A DNA stretch of 64,000 nucleotides from Kaistia algarum. GTDB lineage: Bacteria > Pseudomonadota > Alphaproteobacteria > Rhizobiales > Kaistiaceae. Positions 2,116 through 26,772 of the stretch are shown here, in pieces (positions within the stretch are counted from its first letter, which is position 1; each line of letters opens with the position of its first letter). A model generated the notes under the pieces. It saw only the letters and a list, made by a program, of their open reading frames with translations, was not told the origin of the DNA and searched no databases. The stretch covers positions 1,178,001-1,242,000 of the forward strand of contig NZ_JAPKNJ010000001.1 in NCBI RefSeq assembly GCF_026343945.1. The letters are read 5' to 3'. The translations under genes and the position numbers were made by a program.

Positions 2116-2732
2116 TCGTCCAAATTCGCGAAATCGCTATGCTTAGTCGGACGAATTTCCCAATATGGCTTTTTGCCGGAGCCCTTCAATGGCTTGTCCC
2201 AGCCCTTTCCAGCACCTTCAAATTCCTTTCGGCTGCCCGCGTTAGTGTTAAGAAGAGGATAGCTTCCGTATTTCGACTGGAATTTATCCAGAAGCATATA
2301 CTCTATATGCTTATAGTATAAATCATCAGTAGATCCTTTGGGTTCTGTCAGATAGAAATCAAAATTTGCGCCAGCGACACTCATCATGAAATCGAACAGA
2401 CTATTATTAAAATAAGATTCAATACGGGAAGCAATGTTCCCCATGCCAATATAGATAATCTCGCTGCAGCCTTTTTCGTACGATATCGTGAATGGGTTTG
2501 ATATGCATATAACGTATACGCCTCGTCTAATTTCGGACAATTCGCGATTTGTGACACTCTCGAAATCGGCGGCGATATTTCTGATGACAATTTTTACCGC
2601 GCGCTTACGAATTTCTTTCTGAGTCGCCGGGGAATATTCCTCAAACATCGTGAGATCAAATCCCGCCTCGCGAACTGCGAGAGCCAAACTCTGGTTTCGA
2701 ATCTTCGAATACCACTCGACAGTAGTCGACAT
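2112..2732 (-). CDS. GIY-YIG nuclease-like protein
   Basis: This 206-residue protein shows a GVYVI segment near residue 91 and IIYIG near residue 112, matching the paired GIY and YIG strands of GIY-YIG endonucleases. SRIESY supplies the candidate catalytic arginine, HIEYMLL the metal-binding glutamate, and LLNTNAG the conserved asparagine. About 85 helical residues precede the domain and have no recognisable identity. The gene is clearly AT-richer than its neighbours, suggesting a separate origin. It sits between the Mod methyltransferase gene and the helicase, overlapping the helicase start by four bases, so it is translated as part of the cluster. Role in restriction or in DNA end processing is inferred from context only. 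Confidence 0.65.
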   Translation of the reverse strand: MSTTVEWYSKIRNQSLALAVREAGFDLTMFEEYSPATQKEIRKRAVKIVIRNIAADFESVTNRELSEIRRGVYVICISNPFTISYEKGCSEIIYIGMGNIASRIESYFNNSLFDFMMSVAGANFDFYLTEPKGSTDDLYYKHIEYMLLDKFQSKYGSYPLLNTNAGSRKEFEGAGKGWDKPLKGSGKKPYWEIRPTKHSDFANLDE

Positions 2733-2759
2733 TATCAGCGCCCCCTCAATAGTATTATT

Positions 2760-4694
2760 TTACACCCTGAACACCTTCATCACCTCATCCCCGAAGTGGT
2801 TGATGACCTTGACCGCTATGCGGCTGCTTTGCGGGCGCGCGAAGGGGCGCGACGTGTCGGAGTAGAGCGTCGCCCAGGCGTCTGCGTCAATCTCCGATTG
2901 CAGCGCCGTCTTCAGGCTCTTGTAGGGGTCGTTGTCGCCGAGGAAATAGGCGTGGCGGACGAAGAAGCTTTCCTCGTTGTAGTCGGTGTCGATGAACCAG
3001 GCGGCGATGCCCTTGGTGTCGTTCGAGCGGATGTCGCCAGTGTTGGGATCGAAGACATCGACGCCGTTCACCTTGACGCGGATCATCTCGCCGCCCTCGT
3101 CGAGGATGTCGACATCCGGCTCGCCGAAGACGACGAACATGTTGCCGCGGCCGGTGTTCTTGAGCTCGGCGGACATGTGCATGTCCGGATTGATGCGCGC
3201 CTTCAGGATGCGTAGGCTGCCGAGATTGCCGAGTTCGGATGAATGGGCGTCGAAATTGAAGGCGCAGGCGATCAGCACGTCGAAGCGGGCATCGACGGCC
3301 TCGCGCGCCGCCGCCACCAAATCCTGACGGCCGACCGTGCCATATTCCGGGCCGATCAGGATCGCCGCCCGCCGCTCGGGTCCATTCTCGCCCTCGAAGA
3401 AAGTGCCGCTGGCGCCGATGAAATTGCCAGGCCAGGGGACGAGGCTCTCGAAGGTAACGCGATCGCCCTTCTGCTGCTGCTTGACGCCTTCGGCCCGGAG
3501 ATAGTCGATTACGATGGTCGCAAAGTCCTGGTCCGCAAGGGCGGCATCGGACGCCGAACGCCGGCCCTCGGCAGCCTCGATCTCGTCGATCAGCTCTTCC
3601 TCGCTCGCCGGGAGAACGCGATGCGGTGACAGGCTTTCGACGGTAAACGGCCCAGCGACGCGGACGCGCGCATTGTCGACATAGGGCTTGTCGTAGAGAT
3701 ATTCGACATCGGCGCGCGCTGCGATCGAGGCGTCGATCTCCTTCTGCCGGGCGATGCGCGCCGCCCACCATTGAGCATGCGCCGCCTCGGCCTCCTGCGG
3801 CCAGGGGAAGCGCGGCTTTTCCGGCAGGGTTTCGAACGTGAACGACGGACCGAGATTATGCGCAATGATGGCGAGCGCACTGATCCGCTCGGCTTCCGGG
3901 CGCGAGGCATCGCGCGCGATGGCATGCGCCTTGGCGGAGCCGCTGTCCCACGGCTCGCCGCTGTCGCGCGGGATTTCCCATTCCTCCCAGGCCTTGTCCA
4001 TCGCCGTGTTGAGCTCGCCGCGCAGCGGCTCCAGCACCTGTTGCCACTTCTCCCAGATCTCGTCGATCAGCGGATTGTTGGCGATGGATTTCAGCGTGAC
4101 ATGCGGCACGCGCTCATAGACGAAGCCCTGGCGGAGGTCGCCGTAAACAGGCGTCTCGGCCGGAGGACGCTTCGTCAGCGCGGCCTCCTTGGCGCGGCCC
4201 TCGCGACTGTCGGCGAGCAGATACCAGGGATAGCGCGCCGCCATCAGCCTTGTCCGCGCCAGCGTCAGGGCGACGCGGCTGGTATCCATGGTAATCCAGC
4301 GCCGCCCCCATTGCTCCGCGACAGTGGCCGTGGTGCCGGAGCCGCAAGTCGGATCGAGCACGAGATCGCCGGGATCGGTGGCCATAACAATACATCGCTG
4401 AATTAGTTCGCGCGATGATTGGACCACATATACCTTTGGATCTGTTCGACTCTGGACAGCTCCGCTAATGTCCGCCCAATAGTTGTTAATTGGTATAGCC
4501 GGGAAATCATCAAGGAACCGGACATAGCGGATCGTGTCACGCATCGGGTCGAGCCGGGTCGCCTTGGTTAGCCGAGACATCCCGACTTCACCAGTCTTCC
4601 AATAATTGGATTTAGGCGTGAAGGTCCGTCCCTGGAATTTCACTGGAAATGAACCGGGTGGCCGTTGGCTCGTCATGTCTCCTTGAGCATACAC
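2760..4694 (-). CDS. Type III-like Mod methyltransferase, C-terminal portion after an in-frame stop
   Basis: These 644 residues carry methyltransferase motif I (DPTCGSGTT, near residues 112-120), the site that binds S-adenosylmethionine. The flanking sequences FPVKFQGRTFTP, YVRFLDDFPAIPINN and TMDTSRVALTLARTRLMAARYP are typical of large Type III-like site-specific adenine methyltransferases. It is in the same reading frame as the 4752-5822 gene and is separated from it only by the TGA at 4752-4754 plus 19 sense codons, which also match the family (for example YPDGQR). Both parts together span about 1,020 codons, the normal length of the full protein. As written, this half would need its own initiation at the ATG at 4694, or stop readthrough. 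Either the methyltransferase is inactive or its two halves associate. Confidence 0.8.
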   Translation of the reverse strand: MYAQGDMTSQRPPGSFPVKFQGRTFTPKSNYWKTGEVGMSRLTKATRLDPMRDTIRYVRFLDDFPAIPINNYWADISGAVQSRTDPKVYVVQSSRELIQRCIVMATDPGDLVLDPTCGSGTTATVAEQWGRRWITMDTSRVALTLARTRLMAARYPWYLLADSREGRAKEAALTKRPPAETPVYGDLRQGFVYERVPHVTLKSIANNPLIDEIWEKWQQVLEPLRGELNTAMDKAWEEWEIPRDSGEPWDSGSAKAHAIARDASRPEAERISALAIIAHNLGPSFTFETLPEKPRFPWPQEAEAAHAQWWAARIARQKEIDASIAARADVEYLYDKPYVDNARVRVAGPFTVESLSPHRVLPASEEELIDEIEAAEGRRSASDAALADQDFATIVIDYLRAEGVKQQQKGDRVTFESLVPWPGNFIGASGTFFEGENGPERRAAILIGPEYGTVGRQDLVAAAREAVDARFDVLIACAFNFDAHSSELGNLGSLRILKARINPDMHMSAELKNTGRGNMFVVFGEPDVDILDEGGEMIRVKVNGVDVFDPNTGDIRSNDTKGIAAWFIDTDYNEESFFVRHAYFLGDNDPYKSLKTALQSEIDADAWATLYSDTSRPFARPQSSRIAVKVINHFGDEVMKVFRV

Positions 4695-4751
4695 ACGGTA
4701 ATCGCCTGACGCTTCGGATAGAGAAACACGTTGCCCATCAGGATATTGCGC

Positions 4752-5822
4752 TCACCCGTACCCAGATGTACCGACCATATCCAACTTGTCGCGGTAGATA
4801 GGACGAAATTTCAACGAGTCCTTGTGGCGGGCATAGAAGAGCACTAGGTCCATCACACCGGCGATGTGCTCTGACGTGGCGCCGCTCGTCTTGGGGACAC
4901 CGATCTCCGAAACGCAGTTCTCCGCCCCAAACACCTCATCCATAACCGCCCTGATTCGATGGACGTTCTCGTCGCCGATCTGGACGAAGATCGAGCCACT
5001 CTCCGTCAAGAGGTCGCGCATGACGGTCAGCCGGTCGCGCAGATAGGTCAGGTAGGAGTGGATGCCGTCCTTCCAGGTGTCTCGAAACGCCTTCACCTGC
5101 TCCGGCTCGCGCGAAATATCGACCTGCTTGCCGTCCTTGACGTCGCGGGACTGGGTCGAGACCTGCCAGTTCGAGTTGAACTTGATGCCATAGGGCGGAT
5201 CGAAATAGATGCACTGCACCTTGCCCTTGAGGCTCTCGCGCTCGGAGAGGCTCGCCATCACCTGCAGGCTGTCGCCGAGGATCATGCGGTTCGACCAGTG
5301 GCCGTCATGCTTGTAGAAGCCGTCCTCGGCCCAATCCGTGGGGAAGCCGTTGAAATCGGCAAAGAGGTCCGGCGCGTCGGCCTCCGCCTCGCGCTTTGCG
5401 GCGGTGCGGCGCTTGAGATCGTCGAGGATCGCCTTGGGGTGGATCTTCTCCTGGATGTAGAGCGGCGGCACGTTGACGACGAGGTCGGTCCAGTCCTGCC
5501 GATCCTTGCCGCGCCAGACGAGCTGCGCATCCGAAAGCGTGAGCGAGCCGGTCTCGGCCAGCTCCTTCATCTGCGCCTCGGTGATGGTGATCCTGGCGCC
5601 GTTCCAGATCAGCTCCGGCTGCCGCGGCTCCTCCGCCGTGCGGGTTTCACCCTCCGCCAGAGGCCGAGCGCGCGCGTAATGCTTCGGCGGCAAAGGATGC
5701 GCATCCTCCTCGCGCCGAAAGAAGCTCTCCATCTCGGCGGTGGGAATATTCGTCCGGCTTGCCGCCTCGTGCTTGAGCACGTCGATGATACGGGAGGGCG
5801 GCTTTTTCGGCGTACGGGCCAT
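4752..5822 (-). CDS. Type III-like Mod methyltransferase, N-terminal portion ending at an in-frame TGA
   Basis: This 356-residue product carries motif IV, DPPYG, near residue 206 (CIYFDPPYGIKFNSNWQ), the catalytic motif of N6-adenine methyltransferases. It also has the SGSIFVQIGDENVH segment usual in Type III Mod subunits. Motif IV precedes motif I, as in the beta class. The frame ends at TGA 4752-4754 after TSGYG. Translation of the next codons continues directly into the C-terminal half, so a single substitution (for example a TGG tryptophan codon to TGA) explains the split. The start ATG overlaps the stop of the DUF3883 gene (5820-5824), giving translational coupling. The Res gene lies two genes upstream. 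Confidence 0.82.
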   Translation of the reverse strand: MARTPKKPPSRIIDVLKHEAASRTNIPTAEMESFFRREEDAHPLPPKHYARARPLAEGETRTAEEPRQPELIWNGARITITEAQMKELAETGSLTLSDAQLVWRGKDRQDWTDLVVNVPPLYIQEKIHPKAILDDLKRRTAAKREAEADAPDLFADFNGFPTDWAEDGFYKHDGHWSNRMILGDSLQVMASLSERESLKGKVQCIYFDPPYGIKFNSNWQVSTQSRDVKDGKQVDISREPEQVKAFRDTWKDGIHSYLTYLRDRLTVMRDLLTESGSIFVQIGDENVHRIRAVMDEVFGAENCVSEIGVPKTSGATSEHIAGVMDLVLFYARHKDSLKFRPIYRDKLDMVGTSGYG

Positions 5823-6805
5823 CAGGCGGCGACCTTCGGTTCGAAGATCGGTCGACCGATAAGGACGAGAGGTTCAAGATCGAATGTCCGATGAAACTCA
5901 TGGAGGTCGTAAACCGAGACGTGCGGCCGCTCACCGAGCGCATCCGTCACCATGGCGAGCCGCCATCCATCGTCGACTCGACGGATATACTCGTTCCTTG
6001 TCAGAAAAAGGCAGGCCGTCGCAAGCGACGTCCCTTTTACTTCGACGATGAGAAGGGAATCGTCTTTCGTAAACTCGTAGTCATATCCGCGATTGAGATG
6101 AGCAACGCGATTCGGCTTGTATCCAAGGCTCTCGTAGTGCTTCTTCACGGCAGTTTCGGCAGCGCATTCGACGGCCTTTCGGTGTTCGGTCGTCCCAAAG
6201 CCGGCAAGCGGATCCGGCCCATTCTCGGGGTCGGGGGCTCGCTCATCATCGGGACCAGAGATGGCGATGGGCCTGAGCGCCGCGATCCTTTGTTCAAGAA
6301 GTGCGAGAACGCGGGCTTTGTTGTCGTTCGCTTTCACGCCGGCCCCCGCGAGGAACGAGTATTTCCCCTGCTTCACGGAGGGATCCGAGAAGGGGTCGAT
6401 GCGCAAGTCCGGCGGCACGAAAAAGGCCCGCTTGCTCGTGATGCAATAAGACGAGTGCGGCTCGCCCTGCGCTTCCGCCACCGGGTTGGGCGACACCTCC
6501 CGTCCGATCAAGGTAGCATCCTCATACCAGCCCACAACGTGGATGCCCTTATGTTTGGGGTGCTTTGAAAGACAGACGACAGTCCAGCCGTCGCGATCGT
6601 CATGCGAAGGCGCATGACCCTCGCCCTGAGGGGGGACATAGCAATAGTATGTGCCGCTGGCATCTGGCATGAAATTGAACGCCTCGTGCCCGCGGCCTTC
6701 GTCTTCTTTGCCAATGTGCTGCTTGAGCCAACCAAAATTGCCGCCGACTGGCCCGCCTCGATAGTATTCAGACCAACCGAATTTGACCCATAGAATCTTG
6801 CTCAT
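5822..6805 (-). CDS. DUF3883 domain protein, probable nuclease-fold accessory of the restriction cluster
   Basis: The C-terminal third of this 327-residue protein (about residues 215-300) matches DUF3883. It has GYDYEF, then LLIVEVKGT, an acidic-x-lysine arrangement like PD-(D/E)xK nucleases, then RNEYIRRVDDGWRLAMVTD. The first 170 residues contain ILWVKFGW and GIHVVGWYEDATLIG and may form a modified-base reader-like fold; that is only a guess. The gene lies between res and mod with four-base overlaps on both sides (6802-6805 and 5820-5824), so it is an integral cistron of the cluster. DUF3883 proteins are common in defence islands. A role as an accessory specificity or nuclease subunit is inferred. 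Confidence 0.7.
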   Translation of the reverse strand: MSKILWVKFGWSEYYRGGPVGGNFGWLKQHIGKEDEGRGHEAFNFMPDASGTYYCYVPPQGEGHAPSHDDRDGWTVVCLSKHPKHKGIHVVGWYEDATLIGREVSPNPVAEAQGEPHSSYCITSKRAFFVPPDLRIDPFSDPSVKQGKYSFLAGAGVKANDNKARVLALLEQRIAALRPIAISGPDDERAPDPENGPDPLAGFGTTEHRKAVECAAETAVKKHYESLGYKPNRVAHLNRGYDYEFTKDDSLLIVEVKGTSLATACLFLTRNEYIRRVDDGWRLAMVTDALGERPHVSVYDLHEFHRTFDLEPLVLIGRPIFEPKVAA

Positions 6806-9800
6806 CTCGCGCGCCCCATCAACTTCTCAACCAGCACCGCGAAATCCTCTTCCATCATCGTCCAGTCGCGGAATTCGGCGAAGGCCCAGCGGCCGAAGCC
6901 GCCGAGGGCGTTGACGCCGGGGACCCAGAGATCGCGCGTCGTCTCCGCCTTGGCCTTGTCGGTCTCGTCCTTGATGCCCTTTACCTCGAGCACCAGGTTG
7001 ATTGGCTCCTCGCCGCCATCGTCGAGCCGGACGAGGAAGTCGGGCAGGTAGCGCCGGGTGATGCCGCCGTCGAGATAGGGGATCTCGAAGCCAAGCGCCT
7101 GGTTCTTGGCATAGGCGAGCACGCGCGGATGGCCTTCCAGCGTCAGCGCCAGTTGCTCCTCCCAACTCGAATCGAGCACGACATGGCTGATCTGGCTCTT
7201 CGGCGGCCGAGCTCCGGTCGCCCAGCACGGCTTCGACGTGATGAAGTTGACATGGCGCGTCGAGCCCTTGGGATTATAGGGGTCGAGCACGGCCAGCAGA
7301 CGCCCGCCGCCGGCACGCGTGCACGCGATGTCGATCTTCTCCGCGGCGCGCGCCAGCTGATCTTGATAGAGGATCGCGCCGACCGGCACGCCTTTTGTCA
7401 CGAGGTAGCCCTCGTCAAGCCAGCGCCGTGCGAGGCGCTGGATCTGCGGAAAGAGGTGCTGCTTCGGGAAGCCATCGTCGTCGCGAAAGCTGGTGTAGAG
7501 CAGGTGCTTGGCGAGGTTGAAGCTGATCTCCGAGGGCCTCAGCCGCTCCAGCACATCCGGCGTGATCGTGACGCCCGCGCCGACGATCCCCTCCATGACG
7601 ACGGATGTTGGGCCGATATCCTCGGGCGTGATCACAAGCCGGCTGTCCTCGGTGAAAACCGCGTCGAGCTTCTCGGACGGAAGGTCGCGCCGATAGCCGC
7701 TGACGCGCGGGAAGACGATCTCCAAGGCGGCGCGTTCCCTGATCGCGTGCACGCGCGTCACCGGCTTCGGCCTGGTCGGCTTGGCGACCTGCGGCGAGGA
7801 CGCGAAGTCGAAGGGGATGCCCATGATGTCGGCATATTCGACGTCGAACAGGCCGGTGGCGGGATTAAGGTCATAGGATTGACGGCGCAGGCCGCGACCG
7901 ACGACCTGTTCGCACAGAAGCTGGGTGCCGAAGGCGCGGACACCAAGGATATGCGTCACGGTGTTGGTGTCCCAGCCCTCGGTGAGCATCGACACCGAGA
8001 CAACGCAGCGGATCTGCTCGCCGAGTCTGCCAGGGCGGCCGACCGTGTTCATTACCTCGCGCAGCAATGCGCTCTCTCCGACCTCAGCTCCGATAGCGCC
8101 GGCGCCCGCGCGCGCCGCAACCTCGCGCTTGAACTGGTCGATCTCGGCGCCGGCGGCGTCGCGAAAGCCCTTATCGAGCGCATCGCCGGATTCGATCTGG
8201 CGCGAGTCGATCAAGAGCGTGCATGGACGCGGCAGCCGGCCGCCCTGGTCGTCATAGTTGCGAAACAGCTCCAGATGGCCGGCATGAAAGGCCGCCCGCT
8301 CGCCTTCCTCGGCATCGCCGCGCTCGAAGCCCGCGATCCATTCGAAGACCAGCCTGGAGATGGCGGTATTCTGGCAGACGACGATGAAGACCGGCGGCAC
8401 GGCGATACTGGCCCGCTCCCAGCGATCGAACTCGCCCTCATAATGGCTGTAGAGCGTTGTCAGGGCGGTCCTGAGCATGGGCGGCAGGTCGAATGCGCTG
8501 AGCTTGGCGGCGCCGGCCGCCGTCTTCGGTAGATCTTTGCCGATCTGCTTCCACAAGTCGCGATAGACGACAGTATCGGACCGCACGAGGTTGTCGCTGA
8601 CTGGGACGCGCGGAAGCTTGACGATGCCGCTCTCGATCGCGTCCATCAGGCTGAAATCGGACACGACCCATGGAAACAGCGTCCCTTCGTGATAGCCGGA
8701 GCCGCGCAGGAAAAAGGGGGTTGCAGAAAGGTCGTAGACCGCGCGCACGCCCTTGGACAGCTTGCGGTCCAGCGCCTCGATCCCGTTGATCCAGAGCCGT
8801 GCCGCCTCCTCGTTCTCCACCGCTTCCCGCTTGTCGTCGCCGGTCAGCGCGCCTTCGGCGTCGGCGCCCACCTTGTGCCGGTAGCAGTGATGAGCCTCGT
8901 CGTTGATGACGTTGACGCGGTCATAGTTGAGCAGCTTTTCGCAAGCCCGCTTCAGCATCTCCGCGTCGGTTTCCGTCGTCTTCAGCGGAACCGGATCGTT
9001 GCCTTGCAGGAAGCTGCTCGCGACCTTCGGCAGTGCCATCATCTCGCGGTGCTGGAAGGCATGGTAGTTGGTGATCACGATTTCCGCGCGACGGATGTCG
9101 GGCAGCATCTCTGGAGGCACGATCTCGCGTGTTTCGTAATAGTTATCGGGTTCGCTGGGCTGGAGCACGCGGAGCCGATCCTTGATCGTGATCCCGGGCG
9201 CGACGATCAGAAAGGCGCGAGAAAAATCCTTCGATTCCTTGCGGGCGGCATTGACGGCCTGCCATGCTATCAGCATGGCCATGACCGTCGTCTTGCCGCT
9301 GCCGGTGGCCATCTTCATGGCCAGACGAAAGAGCTCTGGATTGGCCTCCTGATTGTGCCTCTCGATCTGATCTAACAGGCCTTTTGTGGCCGCGCGCCTC
9401 GGCGCGACCTCGGTCAACCAAATGATCGTCTCGACGGCTTCGACCTGACAGAAGAACGGTTGTTGAGCCGACCAACCACTTGGTCTGCGCCAGTGCTCCA
9501 GCAGCCTCTGGGAAACGGAAGTGACGCCCCAGTCAATTGGATTGCGCAAGGTGCGCCACTGGTCAACATAGGCCCTGATCTCGTTGATCAGCGCGTTCTC
9601 GGTATAGGTCTCAAGATCGAGGGATGCCTGATTGGCCGACGCCCGCTTGCGCGATGCGGGAACGGGAACGATGAACCGGGAGGGGCGGCGCCCCTGGCGC
9701 GGCTCTCCCTCGAGCGGCTGACCGTTCTTGTCGAGTGGATGATGCAGGTCCGGCGCGCGGTAGGGCGAGTTCAGGATCGGCCGCTCATAGAAACTGTTCA

Positions 9801-9849
9801 ACCTCTTCCTGCCCCCCGACTGCCATATGCTATTCGAGGTCCCATTCAA
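6802..9849 (-). CDS. res: Type III-like restriction enzyme Res subunit (DEAD/DEAH helicase-nuclease)
   Basis: This 1,015-residue protein has superfamily 2 helicase motifs: Walker A MATGSGKTTVM near residue 182, DEAHH near residue 315, and MLTEGWDTN followed by CEQVVGRGLRR near residue 655. A C-terminal PD-(D/E)xK nuclease is seen as YLPDFLVR, then LVLEVKGIKDE, around residues 937-960. This is the layout of Type III restriction subunits, which translocate along DNA and cut when the site is unmethylated. It is the first gene of a five-gene leftward cluster. The frame starts with a TTG at 9849 and has no obvious ribosome site, so the true start may be somewhat downstream. Because the partner Mod is interrupted, an active Res would threaten the host unless the DUF3883 protein, or a split Mod, controls it. 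Confidence 0.85.
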   Translation of the reverse strand: MNGTSNSIWQSGGRKRLNSFYERPILNSPYRAPDLHHPLDKNGQPLEGEPRQGRRPSRFIVPVPASRKRASANQASLDLETYTENALINEIRAYVDQWRTLRNPIDWGVTSVSQRLLEHWRRPSGWSAQQPFFCQVEAVETIIWLTEVAPRRAATKGLLDQIERHNQEANPELFRLAMKMATGSGKTTVMAMLIAWQAVNAARKESKDFSRAFLIVAPGITIKDRLRVLQPSEPDNYYETREIVPPEMLPDIRRAEIVITNYHAFQHREMMALPKVASSFLQGNDPVPLKTTETDAEMLKRACEKLLNYDRVNVINDEAHHCYRHKVGADAEGALTGDDKREAVENEEAARLWINGIEALDRKLSKGVRAVYDLSATPFFLRGSGYHEGTLFPWVVSDFSLMDAIESGIVKLPRVPVSDNLVRSDTVVYRDLWKQIGKDLPKTAAGAAKLSAFDLPPMLRTALTTLYSHYEGEFDRWERASIAVPPVFIVVCQNTAISRLVFEWIAGFERGDAEEGERAAFHAGHLELFRNYDDQGGRLPRPCTLLIDSRQIESGDALDKGFRDAAGAEIDQFKREVAARAGAGAIGAEVGESALLREVMNTVGRPGRLGEQIRCVVSVSMLTEGWDTNTVTHILGVRAFGTQLLCEQVVGRGLRRQSYDLNPATGLFDVEYADIMGIPFDFASSPQVAKPTRPKPVTRVHAIRERAALEIVFPRVSGYRRDLPSEKLDAVFTEDSRLVITPEDIGPTSVVMEGIVGAGVTITPDVLERLRPSEISFNLAKHLLYTSFRDDDGFPKQHLFPQIQRLARRWLDEGYLVTKGVPVGAILYQDQLARAAEKIDIACTRAGGGRLLAVLDPYNPKGSTRHVNFITSKPCWATGARPPKSQISHVVLDSSWEEQLALTLEGHPRVLAYAKNQALGFEIPYLDGGITRRYLPDFLVRLDDGGEEPINLVLEVKGIKDETDKAKAETTRDLWVPGVNALGGFGRWAFAEFRDWTMMEEDFAVLVEKLMGRAR

Positions 9850-10206: not shown

Positions 10207-12177
10207 ATGGACTTAATCCAGCAGATCGGACGTATCGTTCGATCCATTGTGCTAAGCGGGGCCGCTTATCTCCGAGAGGACTATGCTCCCGGTCTCGTCA
10301 CTCTGGCCCTTGTCGCAGCGTTGCTCATCTGTTGCGCCTTGTTCTTGCGGGAGACGCGCGCACATGTAGCTGCCATGCGGAGGCTGAACCGGGCGATCCG
10401 CCAGTTCAATGACGGCGAGCAACTGAGCGCTCGGTTCGACGCGCTCCAGCGCGAGATCAACGGCTTTCGGTCCGCGTCGGGCCGAAAGATCGCCGCAGCC
10501 TGGAACGAATTTGCCGAAACACTCATCCTTCAAGACGAGGGTGGCCGACCGATCTATCACAATTCGGTTCGACCCTCCGCCTTCTTCAATCTGGAGGATC
10601 TAGGGTTCGGCGCCGGGTTCTGGCGGCATATGCCGGGCCTTTTCGTCTCGATCGGCCTGTTCCTGACCTTCCTCGGCCTCGTCTCTGCGCTCGATTCGAT
10701 GGCGAGTGGCAGTGGCGGCACCATCGGTGCCGAGCAGCTCAATGTGCTGCTGACCGTCGCGTCGGCCAAGTTCATCATGTCGCTCACGGGCTTGGCGTGC
10801 TCGATCGTCTTCACCATTGTGCTGCGGTTCGGCATCGGCAGAGCGGAAGATGTCGCCCACACGCTGTCCGCCGGGATTGAGGAGCGTCTATCCTTCCTGA
10901 GTCTCGAACGACTTGCGGCCGATCAGCTGGCCGCGGTCCGGGCGCAGCGCGAATTCATGCAGACGCTCGGCCATGAGCTGGTCGCCGAGCTCGGCCGCCC
11001 GCTGAAGGAGGAGATCCCGAGGGCCATCTCGTCCAGTATCGAAACGGCGATGCGGCCGCTGATTGACCAGGTCGGCAAGGCCGGTGCCGATGGGGTCGGC
11101 GCGATGGTGGACAGCCTCAGCGCCCGCTTCACGGACGATGTCGGCAAGGCGTTGAACGATGCCAGTCGCCATCTCGCCCAGGCCGGGGATCGAATTGCCG
11201 AGCTTTCGGCCCGCATGGATCAGAGTTCCGGGAAGGTCGGAGACGAGCTGAACATTGCGCTGACGCGCGTGTCAGAGGCCGTAGGGGGCATTCGCGACAC
11301 GCTCGGCGAGGCCGCCCGGGATACGGGCGGCACCTTTAATGCCGGGGCTGAAAAATTGCTCGGTGTGATGAACCAGACGCTGGAAGGCATCCGCGAAAAC
11401 ACATCGGCCGGCGCAGCGGCGATGAGCGCGGCGGCATCCGACCTCCGACAGGCCGGCGAGGGGTTTCGCCAGCAGCTTGAGCACGCAAGTAGGACAGGTG
11501 GGGAGGTCGCTCGTGGGCATATCGAGGCTGCGGGTCAAGAGCTTGGCCGCATCGCGAGCGAGGCCTCCGAAAAAGCGGCCTTCGAAATCCTCGGGCCGCT
11601 TGATGAGATTGCAAACAAGATGGCGGGCGTAGTGAATCAGGTCGCCGCGGCGAGCACAGATTTCCGTCTGCTCGCCGACGGAGTGAGATCCGGCGCGGAT
11701 GCCTCCGTGCTCGCGGCGACAACGTTCCGCGCCGCCTCCCAGGATCTCAGCACCGCCGCCGACCCCATCCGCTCCGCGATCGGCGGCATTCAGGCCTCGG
11801 TCTCGTCTCTCGCCGAGACCACGCAGAGCGTGGGAGCCTCCATCACTCGGTCGGCCGATTCGACCGCACGTTCGGCCGCCGACGCGCTGGCCGCCGCGCA
11901 GGCCGTGCTCGGCAGCGAGCAAAGGGCGATCGAGAACGCCCTCGCTGGCATCGGTGTAGCGCTGGATCGGTTGCGCGAGCAGGGCGCGCGCATTGACGAT
12001 ATCGACGGCAAGCTGGGACGCGCCTTCGAGATCTACACCCAGCAGGTGGCCGGCGCCGTGGACGGAATGCGGCACCATGTTCAGGAGCTGCAGCAGACAA
12101 TGCAGCCTGCGATCGACACGCTGAAATCGGTGGTCGAATCGGCCGAAGAGTTCATACCCCGATCGCGGGCTCGATAA
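10207..12177 (+). CDS. zorA: Zorya type I motor protein ZorA (MotA/TolQ/ExbB-like)
   Basis: Three hydrophobic segments are visible in the first 220 residues (LALVAALLICCALFL; FVSIGLFLTFLGLVSAL; AKFIMSLTGLACSIVFTI), matching the MotA/TolQ/ExbB proton-channel core. A roughly 430-residue alanine-rich helical tail follows, with regularly spaced polar residues. ZorA of known Zorya systems has just this combination: pentameric inner-membrane motor plus a long cytoplasmic coiled tail. I chose ATG 10207 (656 residues) over the upstream GTG at 10183 because a GGGGG ribosome site precedes it at a suitable distance. It is the first gene of zorABCD and its TAA overlaps the zorB ATG by one base. The system protects against phage. 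Confidence 0.9.
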   Translation: MDLIQQIGRIVRSIVLSGAAYLREDYAPGLVTLALVAALLICCALFLRETRAHVAAMRRLNRAIRQFNDGEQLSARFDALQREINGFRSASGRKIAAAWNEFAETLILQDEGGRPIYHNSVRPSAFFNLEDLGFGAGFWRHMPGLFVSIGLFLTFLGLVSALDSMASGSGGTIGAEQLNVLLTVASAKFIMSLTGLACSIVFTIVLRFGIGRAEDVAHTLSAGIEERLSFLSLERLAADQLAAVRAQREFMQTLGHELVAELGRPLKEEIPRAISSSIETAMRPLIDQVGKAGADGVGAMVDSLSARFTDDVGKALNDASRHLAQAGDRIAELSARMDQSSGKVGDELNIALTRVSEAVGGIRDTLGEAARDTGGTFNAGAEKLLGVMNQTLEGIRENTSAGAAAMSAAASDLRQAGEGFRQQLEHASRTGGEVARGHIEAAGQELGRIASEASEKAAFEILGPLDEIANKMAGVVNQVAAASTDFRLLADGVRSGADASVLAATTFRAASQDLSTAADPIRSAIGGIQASVSSLAETTQSVGASITRSADSTARSAADALAAAQAVLGSEQRAIENALAGIGVALDRLREQGARIDDIDGKLGRAFEIYTQQVAGAVDGMRHHVQELQQTMQPAIDTLKSVVESAEEFIPRSRAR

Positions 12178-13079
12178 TGCGCACCGCATTCCGCCGCCGC
12201 AGCCGTGAGGATGAAGAGGAGTCGGTCTTCGTCTCGATGACCGACATGACGGTTAGCTTTCTGTTCATCCTGATGATCATGCTGGCGTTCTTCGCCAGCC
12301 GGTTCGATCCGCGCGAAAGCGTGTCGCGCGTCGAGTATGACCAGGTGGTGGCGCAGCGCGACAAGGCTGCCGCCGAACTGACAGCGGCGCAGCATGAGAT
12401 CGAAGCACTCAAAGAAGAAATCGCCCGCCTGCTGGCGCAGATCGAAGCCAAGGATCCGCTTGAACAATATCTGGCGCAAACAGCTCTTGTAAGGAAGCGC
12501 ATCCTTGAGCAGCTGCGCGACCAACTGAAAATCGACTTTCCCGATCTGCAGGTGATGCTCAGCGAGGAGAATGACGCGCTGCGCTTCCAGGGCGACGGCC
12601 TATTCGAGAGTGGGCAGGCCGTGCTGCGCCCCGAGAAGCGCTCTATCGTCGAATCAATCGCATCGCGGCTTGAGCAGATCCTGCCCTGCTACACGCTCGG
12701 TCCGAGCGCCCACTGGGCGAATGACTGCAACGCCAATGCCGCAATCATCGAGGCGGTGCAGATCGAGGGCCACACAGATTCGACTGGCGATCCAAGGAGC
12801 AACCTGCAGCTCTCCACCAATCGCGCCAACGAGACCTTCGGCGCCATGATCGACCGCCAGCCGAACCTCGACAAACATCTGAACTTCCGCCAGCAGCCCG
12901 TGCTGTCGGTTGCGGGATACGGAGATATGCGGCCGATTGCAGGGAACGAGACCAAGACTGGCCGGGCAACCAACCGGCGCATTGACCTCCGGATCATCAT
13001 GTATACGCCGGCGGTTTCCAACGAGATCGTTCGGATCCGGGAGCGGCTCGGCGCCGACCCAGCGGAGACTTCTCCATGA
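12177..13079 (+). CDS. zorB: Zorya stator protein ZorB (MotB/OmpA-like)
   Basis: This 300-residue protein has one N-terminal membrane helix (TVSFLFILMIMLAFFASRF) preceded by the aspartate of TDMTVSF (about residue 23). That residue is the expected proton-carrying acid of MotB-like stators. A coiled segment follows (about 60-100), then a C-terminal OmpA/MotB peptidoglycan-binding domain with EGHTDSTGD near residue 198 and the RATNRRIDLRI segment near 270. In Zorya, ZorB forms a dimer in the ZorA pentamer and anchors the motor to the cell wall. It overlaps zorA by one base and zorC by four bases (ATGA). Confidence 0.92.
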   Translation: MRTAFRRRSREDEEESVFVSMTDMTVSFLFILMIMLAFFASRFDPRESVSRVEYDQVVAQRDKAAAELTAAQHEIEALKEEIARLLAQIEAKDPLEQYLAQTALVRKRILEQLRDQLKIDFPDLQVMLSEENDALRFQGDGLFESGQAVLRPEKRSIVESIASRLEQILPCYTLGPSAHWANDCNANAAIIEAVQIEGHTDSTGDPRSNLQLSTNRANETFGAMIDRQPNLDKHLNFRQQPVLSVAGYGDMRPIAGNETKTGRATNRRIDLRIIMYTPAVSNEIVRIRERLGADPAETSP

Positions 13080-14383
13080 GCCTGTCCGAGGTCCTGAGGC
13101 GGCACGCTCCCTATCAGCCACGGCCGCTGTCTGGGCTCGCGCCACTCGCTGCTGCGGCCGAACGTGTGTTGGCGCGCTGGCCGGATGCCGTGAAGGAGCC
13201 GCCGGAGAAGGACCGGGAGCGCCTCGTTCAAGAGATGCTCCGGCGGCTGGAGCAAGAAGACTGGCGAGACGTGCATACCTCGTTTGTCACCACTGCCGCG
13301 GTTGCACTATTCGACAACGAGCGCCGAGAGCGGCCGGATCTTGCCAAGCTACGACAGTTCTATCTCGACGAGATCATCGCCAACGACAGCGCGTCGTTCC
13401 GACGGGCGATGGTGGCAGTCTATATTGGCTCCTACGTGCCGCGCGCAGCCCATACGGTGGCGCTTGCCCGAAGCCTGAGCCGGGTGGCCGACGCGCTCGG
13501 CGGCCGCTGGAGCGTGCTGCTGCAAGCGGTGCCACGCCTTCTCGACGGTGTTTCAGCGCATGAACAGGTGAGCCAGCTGATGCTGTCGATGCCCCAGCCG
13601 TGGAGTAATTTGAAGTCCATCAACCTCAGGAGCCCTCACGCCCCTGGCCTAATGACGCACGCTCATCTGGCATTTGTGAAGGCCCTTGCACCAGATCTGG
13701 CGGAGCCCCCTGCCATCGACAAGCTGCTCAACTGGCTGAAACCAGAGGGCGCGCAGCCGAAGGCGGAGGGCGCGTCCGAGGCCATCTCCGCCCTCCTGAT
13801 GCCCTGGAGAACGTCCGATCCGCCTTCCGATCTACGGTCCGAGCTGACGACGCGAATCACCGGCCTTTACGGCGATCCGAGGACGCGAGGCAAGGAGGCG
13901 CCATGGAATGGCGTCGCGGACGACCTAGTGGAGCATCTCTCCCGATGGCTGACGGGTGAGAATATCCGGTTCTTCATGGACATCGTGTCTGACGTCGAGA
14001 CGAGTCACATGTGGACTCCACGCCGGCAGTTCTGGATGAAGCTCCATCAGGAGAGACGCATCACGAGCGCCTGGGTCGCGCTTAGCGACGAGGGCGCGCG
14101 TCTGGCCCGACAGCGGGCAGCAGGGCGACCGGGGTTGAAATTTGGACGGCAGATTGCCGGCGGCAGTCGAATTCGCACCTGCCTGCTGATCCTCAAGATA
14201 GGATCGAAGATCGTTGTCGAGGGGTCGCACAACTATAAGGTGCACGTCTTCGACGAGTCAGCAGCGGGAAGGCCCAAGCTCTATCAAGACGGATATGACT
14301 GCGAACTGATCAGATCGATCAGAGGCGCGCAGGCCAAGATGCACTTGGGAGACTGGCAGGGCTGGGTGCGGGAGAGGATTTAG
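13076..14383 (+). CDS. zorC: Zorya effector ZorC (EH-signature domain)
   Basis: The protein has 435 residues and is largely helical with no membrane segments. The C-terminal half has the EH-signature features, including RRQFWMKLHQERRITSAWV around residues 316-335, then a basic strand-rich end. Identification rests on that signature together with its fixed position between zorB and zorD. In characterised type I systems ZorC is a DNA-binding cytosolic component needed for phage protection together with ZorD. Its ATG overlaps the zorB stop by four bases, and zorD begins four bases after its stop. Confidence 0.85.
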   Translation: MSLSEVLRRHAPYQPRPLSGLAPLAAAAERVLARWPDAVKEPPEKDRERLVQEMLRRLEQEDWRDVHTSFVTTAAVALFDNERRERPDLAKLRQFYLDEIIANDSASFRRAMVAVYIGSYVPRAAHTVALARSLSRVADALGGRWSVLLQAVPRLLDGVSAHEQVSQLMLSMPQPWSNLKSINLRSPHAPGLMTHAHLAFVKALAPDLAEPPAIDKLLNWLKPEGAQPKAEGASEAISALLMPWRTSDPPSDLRSELTTRITGLYGDPRTRGKEAPWNGVADDLVEHLSRWLTGENIRFFMDIVSDVETSHMWTPRRQFWMKLHQERRITSAWVALSDEGARLARQRAAGRPGLKFGRQIAGGSRIRTCLLILKIGSKIVVEGSHNYKVHVFDESAAGRPKLYQDGYDCELIRSIRGAQAKMHLGDWQGWVRERI

Positions 14384-14387
14384 GCCG

Positions 14388-17300
14388 ATGGCACTTGAGC
14401 TTCACTACGACCCGGCGGGAATCACACTACGACTTCCGGCCGAACGGGGTGGGCTGCTCCACCTGCTCCGGAAGCCACCGGCACGAGACCTCCGACGATT
14501 GCCGGCGACTGAGCGCGACCTGATCGTTGCGATCGCGGATCTTCGAGAGCTCAGTGCCGATGATCCCGACAACATGTGCCTGTCCGACGACAACATCTGG
14601 ATATCCCACGAGGTTGCCTCGCAAGTTGATGCTTCGACTGCTGCGACTTTGAGCCTACCCAAGGCAGTCGACCTGACCTTCAGCACGGAGGTCGAGGGGA
14701 TAGTCGGCGCGAGCAATTTCAAGCTGGTGTATCGATGGAGCAAGGGCGGCCATCGCCAGTCGCCGCCACGCGTCGGAGCTATCCTCGAGACTGCTCAAGG
14801 GCCGCGGCTGATCCCCCATTGGATGCTGAAGGCGATCGAGGTTGCCGATGGAGCGAGTCCTCAGGCGGATGACGCAGCCGACTGGGAGGCGCTGGCACGC
14901 TTCCGGCAAGCGCTGGAGCCCGGCTTGCAGATGAGCCGAGGGGACAATGCCGCCCGCATGTCGATGACGGATTTTCTTTCGAGCCTGGAGGTTCGCCTGG
15001 CCGACGCGTTTTCCGTCTCGCCCAACGAGGATGCGACCGACTTTGAGGTGGTGCCATTCTCCCGCGAACGCCTACAGGAGGAGGATGCAGCGCGGGATGG
15101 TGAGATCGACGAGGCGCTTGGTGAACTGAGCGGCGACGCGTTGCGCATGTTTCAGCAACGGTTGCGCGATCGTGGGGCGCTCGCCGCCTATCGGCTCAAG
15201 CCAGGCAGCTACCTGATCGTGGATCGTGGTGCCATGCCGGCACTTCGAGTTATGGCGGAAAAGCAGCGCGGCTCGCGCGGTGAACGACGGGAGTTCATTT
15301 CAAATCCCCGCCCCGCAATAACGACCGCCATCGAGGGTGAACTTGAGCGCCGCGGCCTGCTCGACAACCTAGATGCTGCCAGCATCGAGGAATCGATCGA
15401 GGCAGCCGCTGGCCCGGTTCTGGTGGAGACGGCGCAGTTTTCAAGCCGGGTCGTCGGCCTGAAGATATTTGAGAAGGAGCCAGCGCCGCCCGGCACCAGT
15501 GGTGGCGGCACATGGATGCCCGAGGATTTCGGGCGGAAGCTGGGGGAATATCTGGCTGACTTGCCCAAGCCCGCACTCGAACAGCTCCGGGACGACGTGA
15601 CTGACGCGCTTGCCTCCGAGCAGGATGTAATCGTCCGCGACGGGATCGAAATTCCCGCGCGCCCGGAGACGCTCAGGACCATTGAAACCAGAATCGCTGC
15701 CACTGACCAGCAATCTGATCCGGAGGAAGATCCACTGCTCGGTGCAGCCGGGCCAGTCGTGCTCGACAGCAAGAGCAATTTGCGCGAGCTGCAGTGGTTT
15801 GCCGAACTGAAACCACGAAAGGTAGTTTCACGCAGCCCCCCTTCATTGGTGAGAACCCCGCTGAAGCCGCACCAGGTGGAGAGCTTCGAGTGGCAAGTCG
15901 CTGCCTGGGAGGCTGGACTGCCGGGCGTTCTCAACGCCGACGAGCAGGGCTTAGGAAAAACCCTGCAGACCATAACGTTCCTGACTTGGTTGCAGTCGAA
16001 CATGATCGAGGCCACCACACGAAGACCGTTGCTGGTCGTGGCGCCCACCTCGCTGCTGATCAACTGGGAGCAGGAGGTCGAGCGACACCTCGGCGATCCC
16101 GGTTTGGGCCACGTCATCCGCCTCTATGGCAGCGGCACCAGCTCGCGAAAGCGCATTGGGGAGGGCGGCAAGGACATCGACAGCGGCTCGGCCAAGCTTG
16201 ATCTCGGATTTCTGCACGAAGCGGTTGCGGAAGGACGTGCGCATCGCCTCTGGGTACTCACCACCTATACTACGCTCACGAACTACCAGCACTCTCTCGC
16301 GACCATTCCGTTTGCGGCGGCCGTCTACGACGAGATCCAGACCCTCAAGAACAATCGAAGCATGCGCTCGACCGCTGCGCGTGGCGTGAAGGCGGATTTT
16401 ACCATCGGTCTCACCGGCACCCCGATCGAGAACTCCGTGCTCGATATCTGGTCGATCATGGATCAAGTGGCGCCCGGCAGACTGGACACCGAAAGCAACT
16501 TCCTGGAGCGCTACCGCCGTCCAGACACAGCCAATATGGCTGACCTGCACACCCGCATCTTCAAGACTCAGGAGCGTGTTCCACCCACCGGGATCCGCCG
16601 GCTGAAGTCTCAGGTCGCGAAGGACCTGCCGGGCAAGAGCCGGCGGCTCTACCCCCGTGCTATGCCAAAGGCGCAGGAGTTGGCCTACGAGGATGCGCGA
16701 CTGAAGCTGGCCCAGGGCGGTCGGGGGGCCGCACTCAAAATGCTGCATCACATCCGTGCCGTCTCGGTCCATCCAGACCTGGAGGGCCGCCAACCCGACG
16801 GAGATTTCATCGGATCCTCAGCGCGATTGTCCGCATGCTTCGATTTGATAGGGCGCATACGCGACGCGGGAGAACGAGCGCTGGTGTTCATCGAGCACCG
16901 GCGGATGCAGTATCGATTCATCGAACTAGCCAAGGCTGAGTTCAGATTGAGCAGAATCGACCTGATTAATGGTGACACGCCGATCAAATCCCGGCAGGAA
17001 ATCGTCAACCGATTCCAGGCCCTTGAAAGGGAACCGGGCTTCGACCTGCTTGTGCTCGGTCCCAAGGCGGCAGGCACGGGCCTCACACTTACCGCGGCGA
17101 CGCACGTCATTCATCTTTCTCGATGGTGGAACCCAGCGGTCGAAGAGCAGTGCAACGACCGAGTGCATCGCATCGGTCAGACCAAACCGGTTACCGTACA
17201 CCTGCCGATGGCGATCCATAGCGGCTACCGCGAAAATTCCTTCGACTGTCTCCTCAATAGCCTGATGCAGAGGAAACGTAATCTGGCCGAATCCGCCCTT

Positions 17301-17480
17301 TGGCCGATGGGAGATACCGATGATGACTCCGATCAGCTTCAAAGGATGGTATCGGAGGGGGCCGACCAGTCACTAAGAGGAGGCGACGCAGTTCGGCTCG
17401 CAATCGAGGCGATGTTCCTGCGCGAGGAACTTGGCGCCCCAGACTGGAAATCGGACGGCTCGGTTCTGCTATTCGATTAA
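14388..17480 (+). CDS. zorD: Zorya effector ZorD (SNF2-type helicase/nuclease component)
   Basis: The C-terminal half of this 1,030-residue protein is an SNF2-family ATPase. Walker A is [11 protein letters not shown] near residue 525, motif II is YDEIQTLKN near residue 648 (DEIQ instead of the classic DEAH), motif III is [10 protein letters not shown], and motif VI reads [20 protein letters not shown] near residue 915. The N-terminal half is a large, poorly characterised region typical of ZorD. Known ZorD degrades or unwinds invading DNA in the cytosol after membrane sensing. It is the last gene of the Zorya operon. The frame is full length with no visible damage. An IS3-family remnant lies immediately downstream, with its stop inside the final codons of zorD. 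Confidence 0.9.
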
Positions 17481-17987
17481 AGGTGGCAAGATCAAATGGA
17501 TCGCGACTGACCTTGTCCCCGATGAGCCCTCGTTCATAACTGGACTCTGTTCTTTTTGGTCCGATCTGGACCGGGTTGCAAACTCGTTCGGGGTGAGGCC
17601 GCGCAGGCTCGTGTGCGGCCGGCGCTCGTTGTAGTCGATCCTCAATTCTTCGATGATGCGGCGTGCCGCTGCCATGCCGCAGAACAGGTGTTCGTTGAGG
17701 CACTCGTCCCGGAAGCGGCCGTTCAGGCTTTCGACGAAGCCGTTCTGGGTAGGATTCCCGGGCGCGATGTAGTGCCACTCGACGTGGTTGTCCTCCTGAC
17801 ACTGGAGGATCGACCGCGATGTCAGTTCGGTTCCGTTGTCGGAGACGATCATCAGCGGCCGTCCGCGCGCTTGGGCAATGGCGTCGAGTTCCCGCGCCAC
17901 CCGCGTGCCCGACAGCGACGTGTCGACGACGAGCGCCAGGCACTCGCGGGTGAAGTCGTCGATCACCACCAGGACGGAGTCCTGCAT
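17469..17987 (-). pseudogene. IS3-family transposase OrfB remnant (C-terminal part)
   Basis: About 150 residues of an IS3-family DDE integrase core remain. [20 protein letters not shown] is near the start, [17 protein letters not shown] carries the second aspartate, and [20 protein letters not shown] carries the catalytic glutamate; [19 protein letters not shown] closes the family signature. The N-terminal portion and OrfA are missing: homology stops near 17,987. The frame reads past the usual end into the last bases of zorD, so the element's own end was also lost. It is a relic of transposition in the island and is not expected to be active. Confidence 0.85.
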
Positions 17988-18875: not shown

Positions 18876-19070
18876 TTGGAGATCGAGGAAAAGCGGAAGC
18901 TGCAACGGCTCTATGCCGCGCGTGCAAAGATCGCGTGGCTCGTGATCGAGGATCGCGTCTATGCGCCGATCTTTGAAGCTCTCGAGCAGGACATCGCCGA
19001 ACTCGAGGTCGCCAATGATCCCATCGAGAGAGCGCGTCTGATCGCCCGATCTCAGAGGGCAAAGGCCTGA
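18876..19070 (+). CDS. Small helical protein beside the integrase, function unknown
   Basis: A TTG at 18876, preceded by GGAG at a suitable distance, opens a 64-residue frame. The protein is rich in charged helix formers (EEKRKLQRLYAARAKIAWLV and DIAELEVANDPIERARL), with the regular pattern of a real coiled or helical protein. Its end overlaps the convergent integrase by 19 bases. The frame extends further upstream to 18810, but those codons look non-coding. No family was recognised. A role as a recombination accessory is possible only by position. Confidence 0.45.
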   Translation: MEIEEKRKLQRLYAARAKIAWLVIEDRVYAPIFEALEQDIAELEVANDPIERARLIARSQRAKA

Positions 19071-20332
19071 ACGACACGCTCCAGATGTTCCAGCGTCGCG
19101 CCGCTGCCATATCGCTCGCGACCGAGACCGTGGCCGAACAGATCACGTCGGATACCGTCGTCGACTTTCGCGGCGATCATCCGATCCTCAAAGGAGTGCC
19201 TCAGCCCGTACAGGCTGTGCTCCGGCGTCTCGAGCAGTCCGTTCTCGTCGAGGAACTTGTTCACCGTCGCCGAAAGAGACGGACTGGCGCGGTATCGAGG
19301 GAACCCTTCCGGACATTCGCGGAAGGCCTCAAGGCTGACGCCGACCAGGGGGATGACGCGGCGGGCATTCCGGCTCTTCAGCTGCCTTCCTTCCGGCTCA
19401 ATGCTGATATGGGGAACTTTGGCGTCCAGCCGAATGTGGTGCGGCAAAAGCCCGGCGCCCTCGCTCGGCCGATACCCGGTATTGACCATGCCGAGCAGGA
19501 TACAGCGCGCCTCCTTATTGAGGCCTCGAAGGGCGCCCGGCTTCAGCAGGCGGCGGCGGATCCAGTCCGAAGAGAAGGGTGGCCGAACCCGGGCTTCACC
19601 CTCCTTGATCGCAAGATCCGATAGGGGCAGGACCAGTCGAAGCCGCTTCATGCGGTTGATAGTCTTCAGCGTATCACCGAGATGAACCAGATCCTTGTTG
19701 GCACTGTTCGGAGTTAGACCCTCATCCGTGATCTTGTCGAGCCACCACTGCCGAAAGTCCAACATGTCGTCCGGCGTGATCTCGTGGATCGGCTTGTCCC
19801 CAATCAGTCGAACGAAATTGGCGATCGCCTTCTTGCGGGGATTTTTCCAACGACGGAGCTGATCCTCGCTCTTGCCAAGCGTGCGGTCGGCGGCAAGCGT
19901 CCAGAACAATTCCAAGGCGCGCGTAACCGTGATCCCTGGCTCGTCGACGCCACCCAGAACGGCAGCCGCGGTTGGAGCATCGGGTTTGTCGCCGAGCACT
20001 GGAATCGCTTCGATGCGAGCCAGGCGCTCCTCCAGGGGCAATCTGGCCACCTCGCTCGCCCGCAGATACCGGAAGCCTCGAGCAGATGCGAGATCCCTGG
20101 CGGCAGCAAAGCGCTCCTCAGCATCTGCACTATCGCCAGCCAGTCGCGCCTCCCAGCCATCGACGAGATGCTGCCAGGCGATCGGAGCCTTGCTCCGGGC
20201 AACAGTCTCCGAATCCGTGTGCAGCGATATCCAAACTGTGGATCGAGGCTCGATGGCGGCATAACGCTTCGGCACACGCTTCCGGAGATGGAAGGTAGCG
20301 CCGCGCCGGATTGGAACTTCAGCCGCCACCAC
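19052..20332 (-). CDS. Tyrosine recombinase/integrase of the tRNA-Ser island
   Basis: This 426-residue site-specific recombinase has an N-terminal arm with HLRKRVPKRYA, as in DUF6538-type integrases, and a core-binding domain around residues 130-240. The catalytic residues are visible: arginine in NTGYRPSEGAGL (about 292), LRHSFEDR (about 377-384), histidine near 401 and the nucleophilic tyrosine of RERYGSG at about 408. The gene lies about 150 bases from the 3' end of tRNA-Ser(GGA), the usual place for an integrase whose attachment site is a tRNA 3' end. It appears intact, so the island could still be excisable if its other end survives. Confidence 0.9.
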   Translation of the reverse strand: MVAAEVPIRRGATFHLRKRVPKRYAAIEPRSTVWISLHTDSETVARSKAPIAWQHLVDGWEARLAGDSADAEERFAAARDLASARGFRYLRASEVARLPLEERLARIEAIPVLGDKPDAPTAAAVLGGVDEPGITVTRALELFWTLAADRTLGKSEDQLRRWKNPRKKAIANFVRLIGDKPIHEITPDDMLDFRQWWLDKITDEGLTPNSANKDLVHLGDTLKTINRMKRLRLVLPLSDLAIKEGEARVRPPFSSDWIRRRLLKPGALRGLNKEARCILLGMVNTGYRPSEGAGLLPHHIRLDAKVPHISIEPEGRQLKSRNARRVIPLVGVSLEAFRECPEGFPRYRASPSLSATVNKFLDENGLLETPEHSLYGLRHSFEDRMIAAKVDDGIRRDLFGHGLGRERYGSGATLEHLERVVQAFAL

Positions 20333-20485: not shown

Positions 20486-20575
20486 TGGCGGAGGGAGCGG
20501 GATTCGAACCCGCGATACGGTTTCCCGTATACACACTTTCCAGGCGTGCGCCTTCAACCACTCGGCCACCCCTCC
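20486..20575 (-). tRNA. tRNA-Ser (anticodon GGA)
   Basis: Read on the minus strand, the 90-base gene begins GGAGGGGTGGCCGAGTGG and ends with the complementary acceptor strand plus an encoded CCA. The anticodon loop is CTGGAAA, giving anticodon GGA. A long variable arm (GTATACGGGAAACCGTAT) identifies the serine class, and the T arm has the GGTTCGAATCC consensus. The 3' end faces the integrase gene and is the probable attachment site of the defence island, yet the tRNA is complete. A duplicated 3' fragment marking the far island end was not seen in this window. Confidence 0.96.
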
Positions 20576-25751: not shown

Positions 25752-25803
25752 GAACCCTCCCCTTGCCGGAGGGTCGAAAACGCATCGCGTTTTCGGGGAG
25801 GGG
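25752..25803. repeat. Palindromic repeat, divergent copy of the 26498/27196 family
   Basis: The layout AACCCTCCCC...GGAGGGTCGAAAACGC...GCGTTTTCGGGGAGGGG matches the half-unit of the repeats at 26498 and 27196, with the outer arms changed from CCCGCCCC to CCCTCCCC. An AGCTTCGGC...GCCGAAGC palindrome follows, as it does inside the complete units. Confidence 0.7.
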
Positions 25804-25852
25804 CTAGCTTCGGCAAAGCCGAAGCGTGCTTCTCTTCCCGACAAAGCAAGCC

Positions 25853-25975
25853 CTCACCCCCAACCCTCTCCCGCAAGCGGTAGAGGGAGTCCGGTCTGCG
25901 CGCTTCATCAAGCTCCCGGCTGATCGTCAGCGCCCCCTCGCCCGCGACGCGGGAGAGGGCCGGGGTGAGGGCCTT
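25853..25975. repeat. Inverted pair of CCCTCACCCC...CTCTCCCGC repeats
   Basis: The left arm (about 25853-25890) contains CCCTCACCCCCAACCCTC and a short hairpin CTCTCCCGCAAGCGGTAGAG. The right arm (about 25930-25975) is its near-exact inverse, GCGGGAGAGGGCCGGGGTG. This type of palindromic intergenic repeat is common in Rhizobiales genomes. Confidence 0.65.
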
Positions 25976-26035
25976 GCTTTCAAGACGCACCACAGCCCCA
26001 GCCCGAAAATCCCCGCCGGCTTGTCGCCGCCAGGG

Positions 26036-26303
26036 TGAACCGAAGAGGTCGCGCGGGGCGGCCGGAGGCCCGCGCGCGGGCGGCGCGCCGGCGATGAATT
26101 TCGAGTGGGTTGCCCGAGCCGCCCGTGACGGGCAGCCGGCGCCCCGCGCCGACAGGTTTTCCAACCGGTACCGACGGACCGTGGGTGTTTCGGTGCTGGG
26201 TCACCCGGCGGCAATTCCCACGCCCGGATCCTCCTTACGGAAAGGCGGACGCCCGCCACTGGCCCGCGTGTACGGACCCGGCGCATCGGAGTTCCGGCCG
26301 CCA
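26036..26303. other. GC-rich intergenic block with several small hairpins; nature unknown
   Basis: No gene is supported here: frames are open on both strands simply because the composition is extremely GC-rich. Several compact hairpins occur in sequence, including GCCCG-TGA-CGGGC at 26121-26133 and GGTT-TTCC-AACC at 26155-26166. It could be a structured RNA or part of a multicopy intergenic element. Nothing in the sequence decides between these. Confidence 0.35.
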
Positions 26304-26690: not shown

Positions 26691-26772
26691 ACGCGCCGTG
26701 CGTCGTTGCGGAGCGGCGGGTTGCGGATACAAAGCCCTATGGCACACTTCGAGGTTGAACAAGGTGTGCACC

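Follow-up and report, generated by a model that had tools for sequence, protein, structure and literature searches.

The locus consists of four open reading frames in series on the + strand, zorA-zorB-zorC-zorD, which together occupy positions 10207–17480 of the window, i.e. the whole 64,000-nucleotide stretch of DNA analysed here (C1:1178001–1242000, from a genome of 5.26 Mb in 10 contigs). The first, zorA, runs from an ATG at 10207 to a stop at 12177 and encodes a 656-residue MotA/ExbB-like motor subunit with a long helical cytoplasmic tail; an alternative in-frame GTG at 10183 would add eight residues. It is followed on the same strand by zorB (12177–13079, 300 aa), which encodes a MotB/OmpA-like stator with a membrane aspartate, Asp23, and a peptidoglycan-binding domain, and by zorC (13076–14383, 435 aa), which encodes an EH-signature protein. 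The last gene, zorD (14388–17480, + strand, 1030 aa), encodes a SNF2-family helicase/translocase that carries no recognised Mrr nuclease domain. The zorA and zorB genes overlap by one base and zorB and zorC by four, while a gap of four bases separates zorC from zorD. A check of the open reading frames reproduced the positions, gene order, overlaps and gap given by an earlier sequence-only reading of this DNA, and the undamaged frames that it described are indeed open, with no internal stop in any of the four genes. No sigma-70-like promoter was seen between 9800 and 10300, where 0.1 would be expected by chance; host promoters may differ, and the absence is weak evidence.

Among PADLOC profiles, type I Zorya models are the best match for all four proteins. 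ZorA matches ZorA1 (PDLC00600) with 826 bits over residues 1–654 (E = 6.5e-249), and ZorB and ZorC match ZorB1 (PDLC00612, 398 bits, E = 5.8e-120) and ZorC1 (PDLC00619, 568 bits, E = 3.5e-171) over nearly their full length. ZorD matches ZorD1 (PDLC00629) with 1254 bits over residues 1–1026 (E = 0). In Pfam, ZorC matches EH_Signature (PF15611) with 163 bits against a cut-off of 27.5 (E = 1.4e-47), ZorD matches SNF2 (E = 1e-39) and, likewise above cut-off, Helicase_C, and ZorB matches OmpA (E = 7.4e-12). The NCBIfam Zorya models all score below their curated cut-offs (ZorA1 46 bits against 750, ZorA_1 156 against 190, ZorB1 29 against 400 and ZorD 264 against 1500), and none of them matches ZorC. 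Pfam returns no MotA match for ZorA at E <= 0.01; the MotA-like label is used because of the PADLOC model, the NCBIfam Zorya models (below cut-off) and the solved ZorA 8qyk.

Comparison with proteins of known structure gives the same assignments. By sequence, ZorA matches 8qyk (E = 1.1e-8), the best match of ZorB is 8vvn_B from Shewanella, and ZorD matches the solved ZorD 8qy7 in an alignment that extends to residue 1065 of 1080. For ZorC, neither a single-sequence nor a profile search of PDB sequences found anything credible, the best profile match being an unrelated glycosyltransferase (E = 0.026). Folds were compared using AlphaFold models built from 7 ZorC and 8 ZorD sequences (mean pLDDT 80.7 and 75.8, respectively). 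At E <= 0.001 the predicted ZorC fold has a single match in the PDB, the entry 8r68, which bears the title ZorC (E = 1.2e-5, TM 0.46–0.50, 13% identity). For the predicted ZorD fold, 8qy7, titled ZorD, ranks first (E = 1.3e-45, 1067 columns, 22% identity) and leads the next by about nineteen orders of magnitude. The ZorD model has a pTM of 0.46 and a TM of 0.42–0.48 to 8qy7, and its domain arrangement is therefore uncertain. Profiles and folds together place the third protein in the ZorC/EH-signature family and the fourth with ZorD, its N-terminal half included; these were the two assignments on which the sequence-only reading had staked its case. Its descriptions of ZorA as MotA-like, ZorB as MotB/OmpA-like and ZorD as SNF2-type also agree with these matches.

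Several other classifications were considered and rejected. Zorya type II, in which the HNH nuclease ZorE replaces ZorC and ZorD, does not fit: both of these proteins are found here, and the PADLOC matches shown for ten proteins include no ZorE model. The type III proteins ZorF (DUF3348) and ZorG (DUF2894) are likewise unmatched among ten proteins at a Pfam E <= 0.01. The helicase might also have been a DISARM or Dpd protein, but the models for DpdE (211 bits) and DrmD (65 bits) score far below the 1254 bits of ZorD1.

Judged from hydropathy alone, ZorA has membrane segments at 24–52, 141–167 and approximately 180–211, and ZorB has a single segment at 16–45. The ZorA tail, taken from position 231 to the C-terminus, comprises 426 residues, compared with about 460 in the Zorya type I system of Shewanella sp. 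ANA-3 (8vvn). At 0.15 nm per residue it would form a rod roughly 60 nm long. Among 17 relatives the tail measures 418–472 residues in 12 and 249, 250 and 297 in three, and is unreadable in two (L025 and L039). The operons with the shorter tails (L045, L046 and L047; about 250, 250 and 297 residues) are otherwise type I. Thr154 of ZorA aligns with a threonine of the solved ZorA, and is kept in all 16 sequences that have the position, two others having a gap there.

The aspartate that was expected in the ZorB membrane segment is found at position 23. On sequence grounds it is the counterpart of Asp24 of described type I systems, a residue that PMC11890865 reports as required for defence. This membrane aspartate is shared with the type I systems of Shewanella sp. 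ANA-3 and Serratia marcescens ATCC 274 described there, and the same paper lists His186, Leu199, Arg203, Arg254 and Arg259 as residues of the ZorB peptidoglycan site. The corresponding residues here are His199, Leu212, Arg216, Arg267 and Arg272, which stand at a constant offset of 13 from those given for S. marcescens ATCC 274, a correspondence drawn from spacing and identity with the Serratia sequence itself unaligned. All five, together with Asp23, are kept in 14 of 14 aligned ZorB sequences, a set that includes the window and leaves out L023, L047, L048 and L049.

In an alignment of ZorC from the window and all 17 related loci, His423 is invariant (18 of 18) and Glu382 is replaced only once, by aspartate (17 of 18). 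These two residues are likely to be the EH signature, and are linked to residues tested in E. coli. A C-terminal extension of approximately 260–300 residues with a proline-rich start is found on ZorC in three contigs from a viral collection (L050 1–2226, L051 1–2226 and L052 5908–8001); the extensions of L050 and L052 have no Pfam match at E <= 0.1.

ZorD is also conserved at positions of presumed importance. Lys524 (Walker), Asp648, Glu649 and Gln651 (motif II) and Arg928 are kept in all 17 sequences of an alignment that includes the window and omits L049. The sequence-only reading had pointed to DEIQ in place of the classic DEAH in motif II. The motif is present as described, but it is no peculiarity of this protein: DEIQ occurs in 17 of 18 aligned ZorD sequences, window included, with DEVQ in the remaining one, and the solved 8qy7 has DEAQ.

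PMC11890865, citing earlier work, attributes an Mrr-like nuclease domain to ZorD. No Mrr_cat match was found in the ZorD of the window at E <= 0.01, whereas some distant relatives do have the domain. It stands at the C-terminus in two of 17 aligned ZorD proteins (L047 and L048), and a third case occurs in a viral contig (L056). The solved 8qy7 has 15 residues after the helicase, too few to hold such a domain at that end either. Because the domain is rare among aligned ZorD proteins and has no room in 8qy7, it is treated here as an optional addition that does not define the family.

The order A-B-C-D on one strand is kept in all 17 related loci; these were picked by a ZorC or ZorD match, so their completeness is biased for those two genes. 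Contig ends truncate zorA in three loci (L039, L042 and L047), and in one (L025) the gene appears interrupted. The latter belongs to a Zorya system of the same genus (G011; zorA at 8012–9496 of L025), in which the zorA match extends beyond the open frame. With the genome of the window included, ZorC is matched in two of the 14 genus genomes, four of 28 in the family and 11 of 385 in the class (several of these matches are weak); two of the 11 class genomes were retrieved. Among 397 genomes from the order, drawn from a larger group, 25 have a ZorD match at E <= 1e-60, the window's own genome again included. Thirteen of these were retrieved besides that genome; the other 11, some of which may encode SNF2 helicases of another kind, match at 35–40% or, where only part of the protein aligns, at 36% or 45%. 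The distribution of Zorya type I across these relatives is patchy.

One named relative, Ruegeria atlantica, came from a scan of contigs, and plasmids gave two matches in Zymomonas and a weak one in Azospirillum. All three genera are alphaproteobacteria, so the host of the operon is probably one as well. With the ZorD profile, 29 loci were found in viral contigs. Ten of these were viewed: four have all four genes, two start at zorC and four have the helicase only. Searches of viral contigs with ZorC, by single sequence or by profile, led nowhere.

The Zymomonas mobilis plasmids (NC_013356 and NC_015715) carry Zorya type I, and their annotation uses generic names only. Together with the matches of ZorB to many OmpA/MotB families in NCBIfam, this might suggest a MotAB/ExbBD-like ion-driven motor with some role other than defence that happens to adjoin an unrelated SNF2 helicase. 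The constant company of all four genes in the 17 loci, with the selection bias noted above, and the matches of the predicted ZorC and ZorD folds to solved Zorya proteins make such a motor highly improbable, and argue for a Zorya system.

To the left of the operon, on the opposite strand, a cassette at 331–9849 encodes a BPTD_3080-family restriction enzyme (1221 bits, NCBIfam), a NOV_C protein, a UvrD-like helicase and a type III-like methylase, whose gene is split in two. The restriction gene (6802–9849, − strand) is an open frame. The methylase gene (2760–5822, − strand) has an in-frame stop between open pieces at 2760–4694 and 4752–5822. A conserved split into two genes is ruled out, as the methylase is a single open frame in two other genomes (G011, locus L029, and G224, locus L040). 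The stop may reflect a sequencing error or an inactive restriction enzyme, and it is also possible that the pieces are functional. Three other genomes also have the UvrD-like helicase close to Zorya I. It is accompanied by both the methylase and the restriction enzyme in G011 (L025/L029) and by the methylase in G224 (L040, where the stretch ends), and stands without either in G023 (L024/L030). Zorya I and the restriction-modification/UvrD cassette may travel together.

Further out, left of the window, a region at 35–12838 of L003 encodes a subtilase-like protease, a caspase-like protein, a protein whose start resembles TIR (recognised by eye) and one of 1438 residues with a partial match to the candidate defence model PDC-S60. 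These are possibly further defence genes.

On the right, the remnant of an IS3-family transposase (17469–17987, − strand) overlaps the last bases of zorD from the opposite strand. It covers positions 235–368 of 369 in the NCBIfam model and scores 126 bits against a cut-off of 160. Truncation of zorD by this remnant is ruled out, as the C-terminus of the protein ends where those of its relatives do. An integrase-like gene follows (19052–20332, − strand; Pfam DUF6538, with Phage_integrase just below cut-off), and possibly belongs to an island that carries the operon. Beside it is a tRNA-Ser (GGA) gene (20486–20575, − strand, ARAGORN). In another genome of the set (G012) an integrase of 72% identity lies beside the same tRNA-Ser. 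This tRNA is present in all 14 genomes of the genus and the DNA past its 3' end is unlike between genomes, so the site looks like an insertion hotspot. Within up to 1500 bases past the 3' end, the window and G012 are the only pair that shares sequence (blastn E <= 1e-10, with only 297 bases available in G008). No left attachment site was found within 40 kb upstream, nor a second attachment site anywhere in the genome when a 24-base stretch from the end of the tRNA was compared with up to two mismatches allowed; we therefore infer, rather than observe, integration at this site and the outer limit of the island. On the far side of the tRNA, a gene at 27603–29444 (− strand) encodes an OLD-family ATPase-Toprim protein (PADLOC Old, 281 bits), next to GC-rich repeats of approximately 50–119 bases at 25753–27580, present in several copies with inverted arms.

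The nearest relative found (L023, genome G027) is from the same family and shows 67–71% identity. The operon order of the window recurs in such relatives and on the Z. mobilis plasmids, with other neighbouring genes, and the DEIQ motif is found in L023 and L034. Against L023, pN/pS is 0.39 for zorA, 0.37 for zorB, 0.35 for zorC and 0.31 for zorD, at a dS of about 1.0–1.6; these values come from one relative and average over a long divergence, so that a recent loss could escape detection. Such selection supports function over the span of the divergence as opposed to present-day activity.

The IS3 remnant abutting zorD and the stop in the adjoining methylase gene would also suit an operon whose genes are intact but which its host does not express or which has no activity there, carried along in an island that is decaying. 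The four open frames, the pN/pS values of 0.31–0.39 (subject to the same limit) and the retention of key residues speak against this, and we consider it improbable. That the operon is functional we infer from these same features: open frames, kept residues and one pairwise selection test. Overall, the locus appears to be a complete Zorya type I system that probably works against phage, a reading to which we assign a probability of roughly 0.93. It is a good new example of a known defence and no new kind of system.

The published model of Zorya type I (PMC11890865 and PMC12904381) proposes that a motor in the membrane detects phage attack and summons proteins that destroy DNA. Each step given here beyond gene identity is taken from that published model. 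By analogy with published Zorya systems, ZorA and ZorB would assemble at a ratio of 5:2 into an ion-driven motor of the inner membrane. A phage that disturbs the envelope would cause ZorB to engage peptidoglycan, and ions flowing past Asp23 of ZorB would turn or reshape the long ZorA tail. The tail would then recruit ZorC and ZorD, the latter acting as a SNF2-type DNA motor, and these two would bind and destroy incoming DNA near its entry site, or damage host DNA. As the ZorD of the window has no recognised nuclease domain, the cutting step is left without an assigned domain. In this branch of the family ZorD could be a DNA motor without nuclease activity and, if ZorC has none either, the system might by itself only block or unwind incoming DNA and leave cutting to others, possibly neighbours such as the restriction enzyme and the UvrD-like helicase. 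This version is unlikely; if true, Zorya I would act by recruiting a DNA motor and not as a nuclease.

Compared with the solved Zorya type I proteins 8qyk (ZorA), 8qyd (ZorB), 8r68 (ZorC) and 8qy7 (ZorD), the E. coli set of Hu et al. 2025, the system described here matches in all four components, in the folds of ZorC and ZorD and in the helicase core. Identity in the fold comparisons is low, at 13% (ZorC) and 22% (ZorD), and motif II differs. The operon adds a well-supported member to a branch of Zorya type I that resembles the solved systems only distantly and lies outside the reach of NCBI's curated Zorya names. Comparison between branches indicates that the helicase core, Glu382 and His423 are kept and that the Mrr domain is optional, and so makes the question of which component cuts DNA testable.
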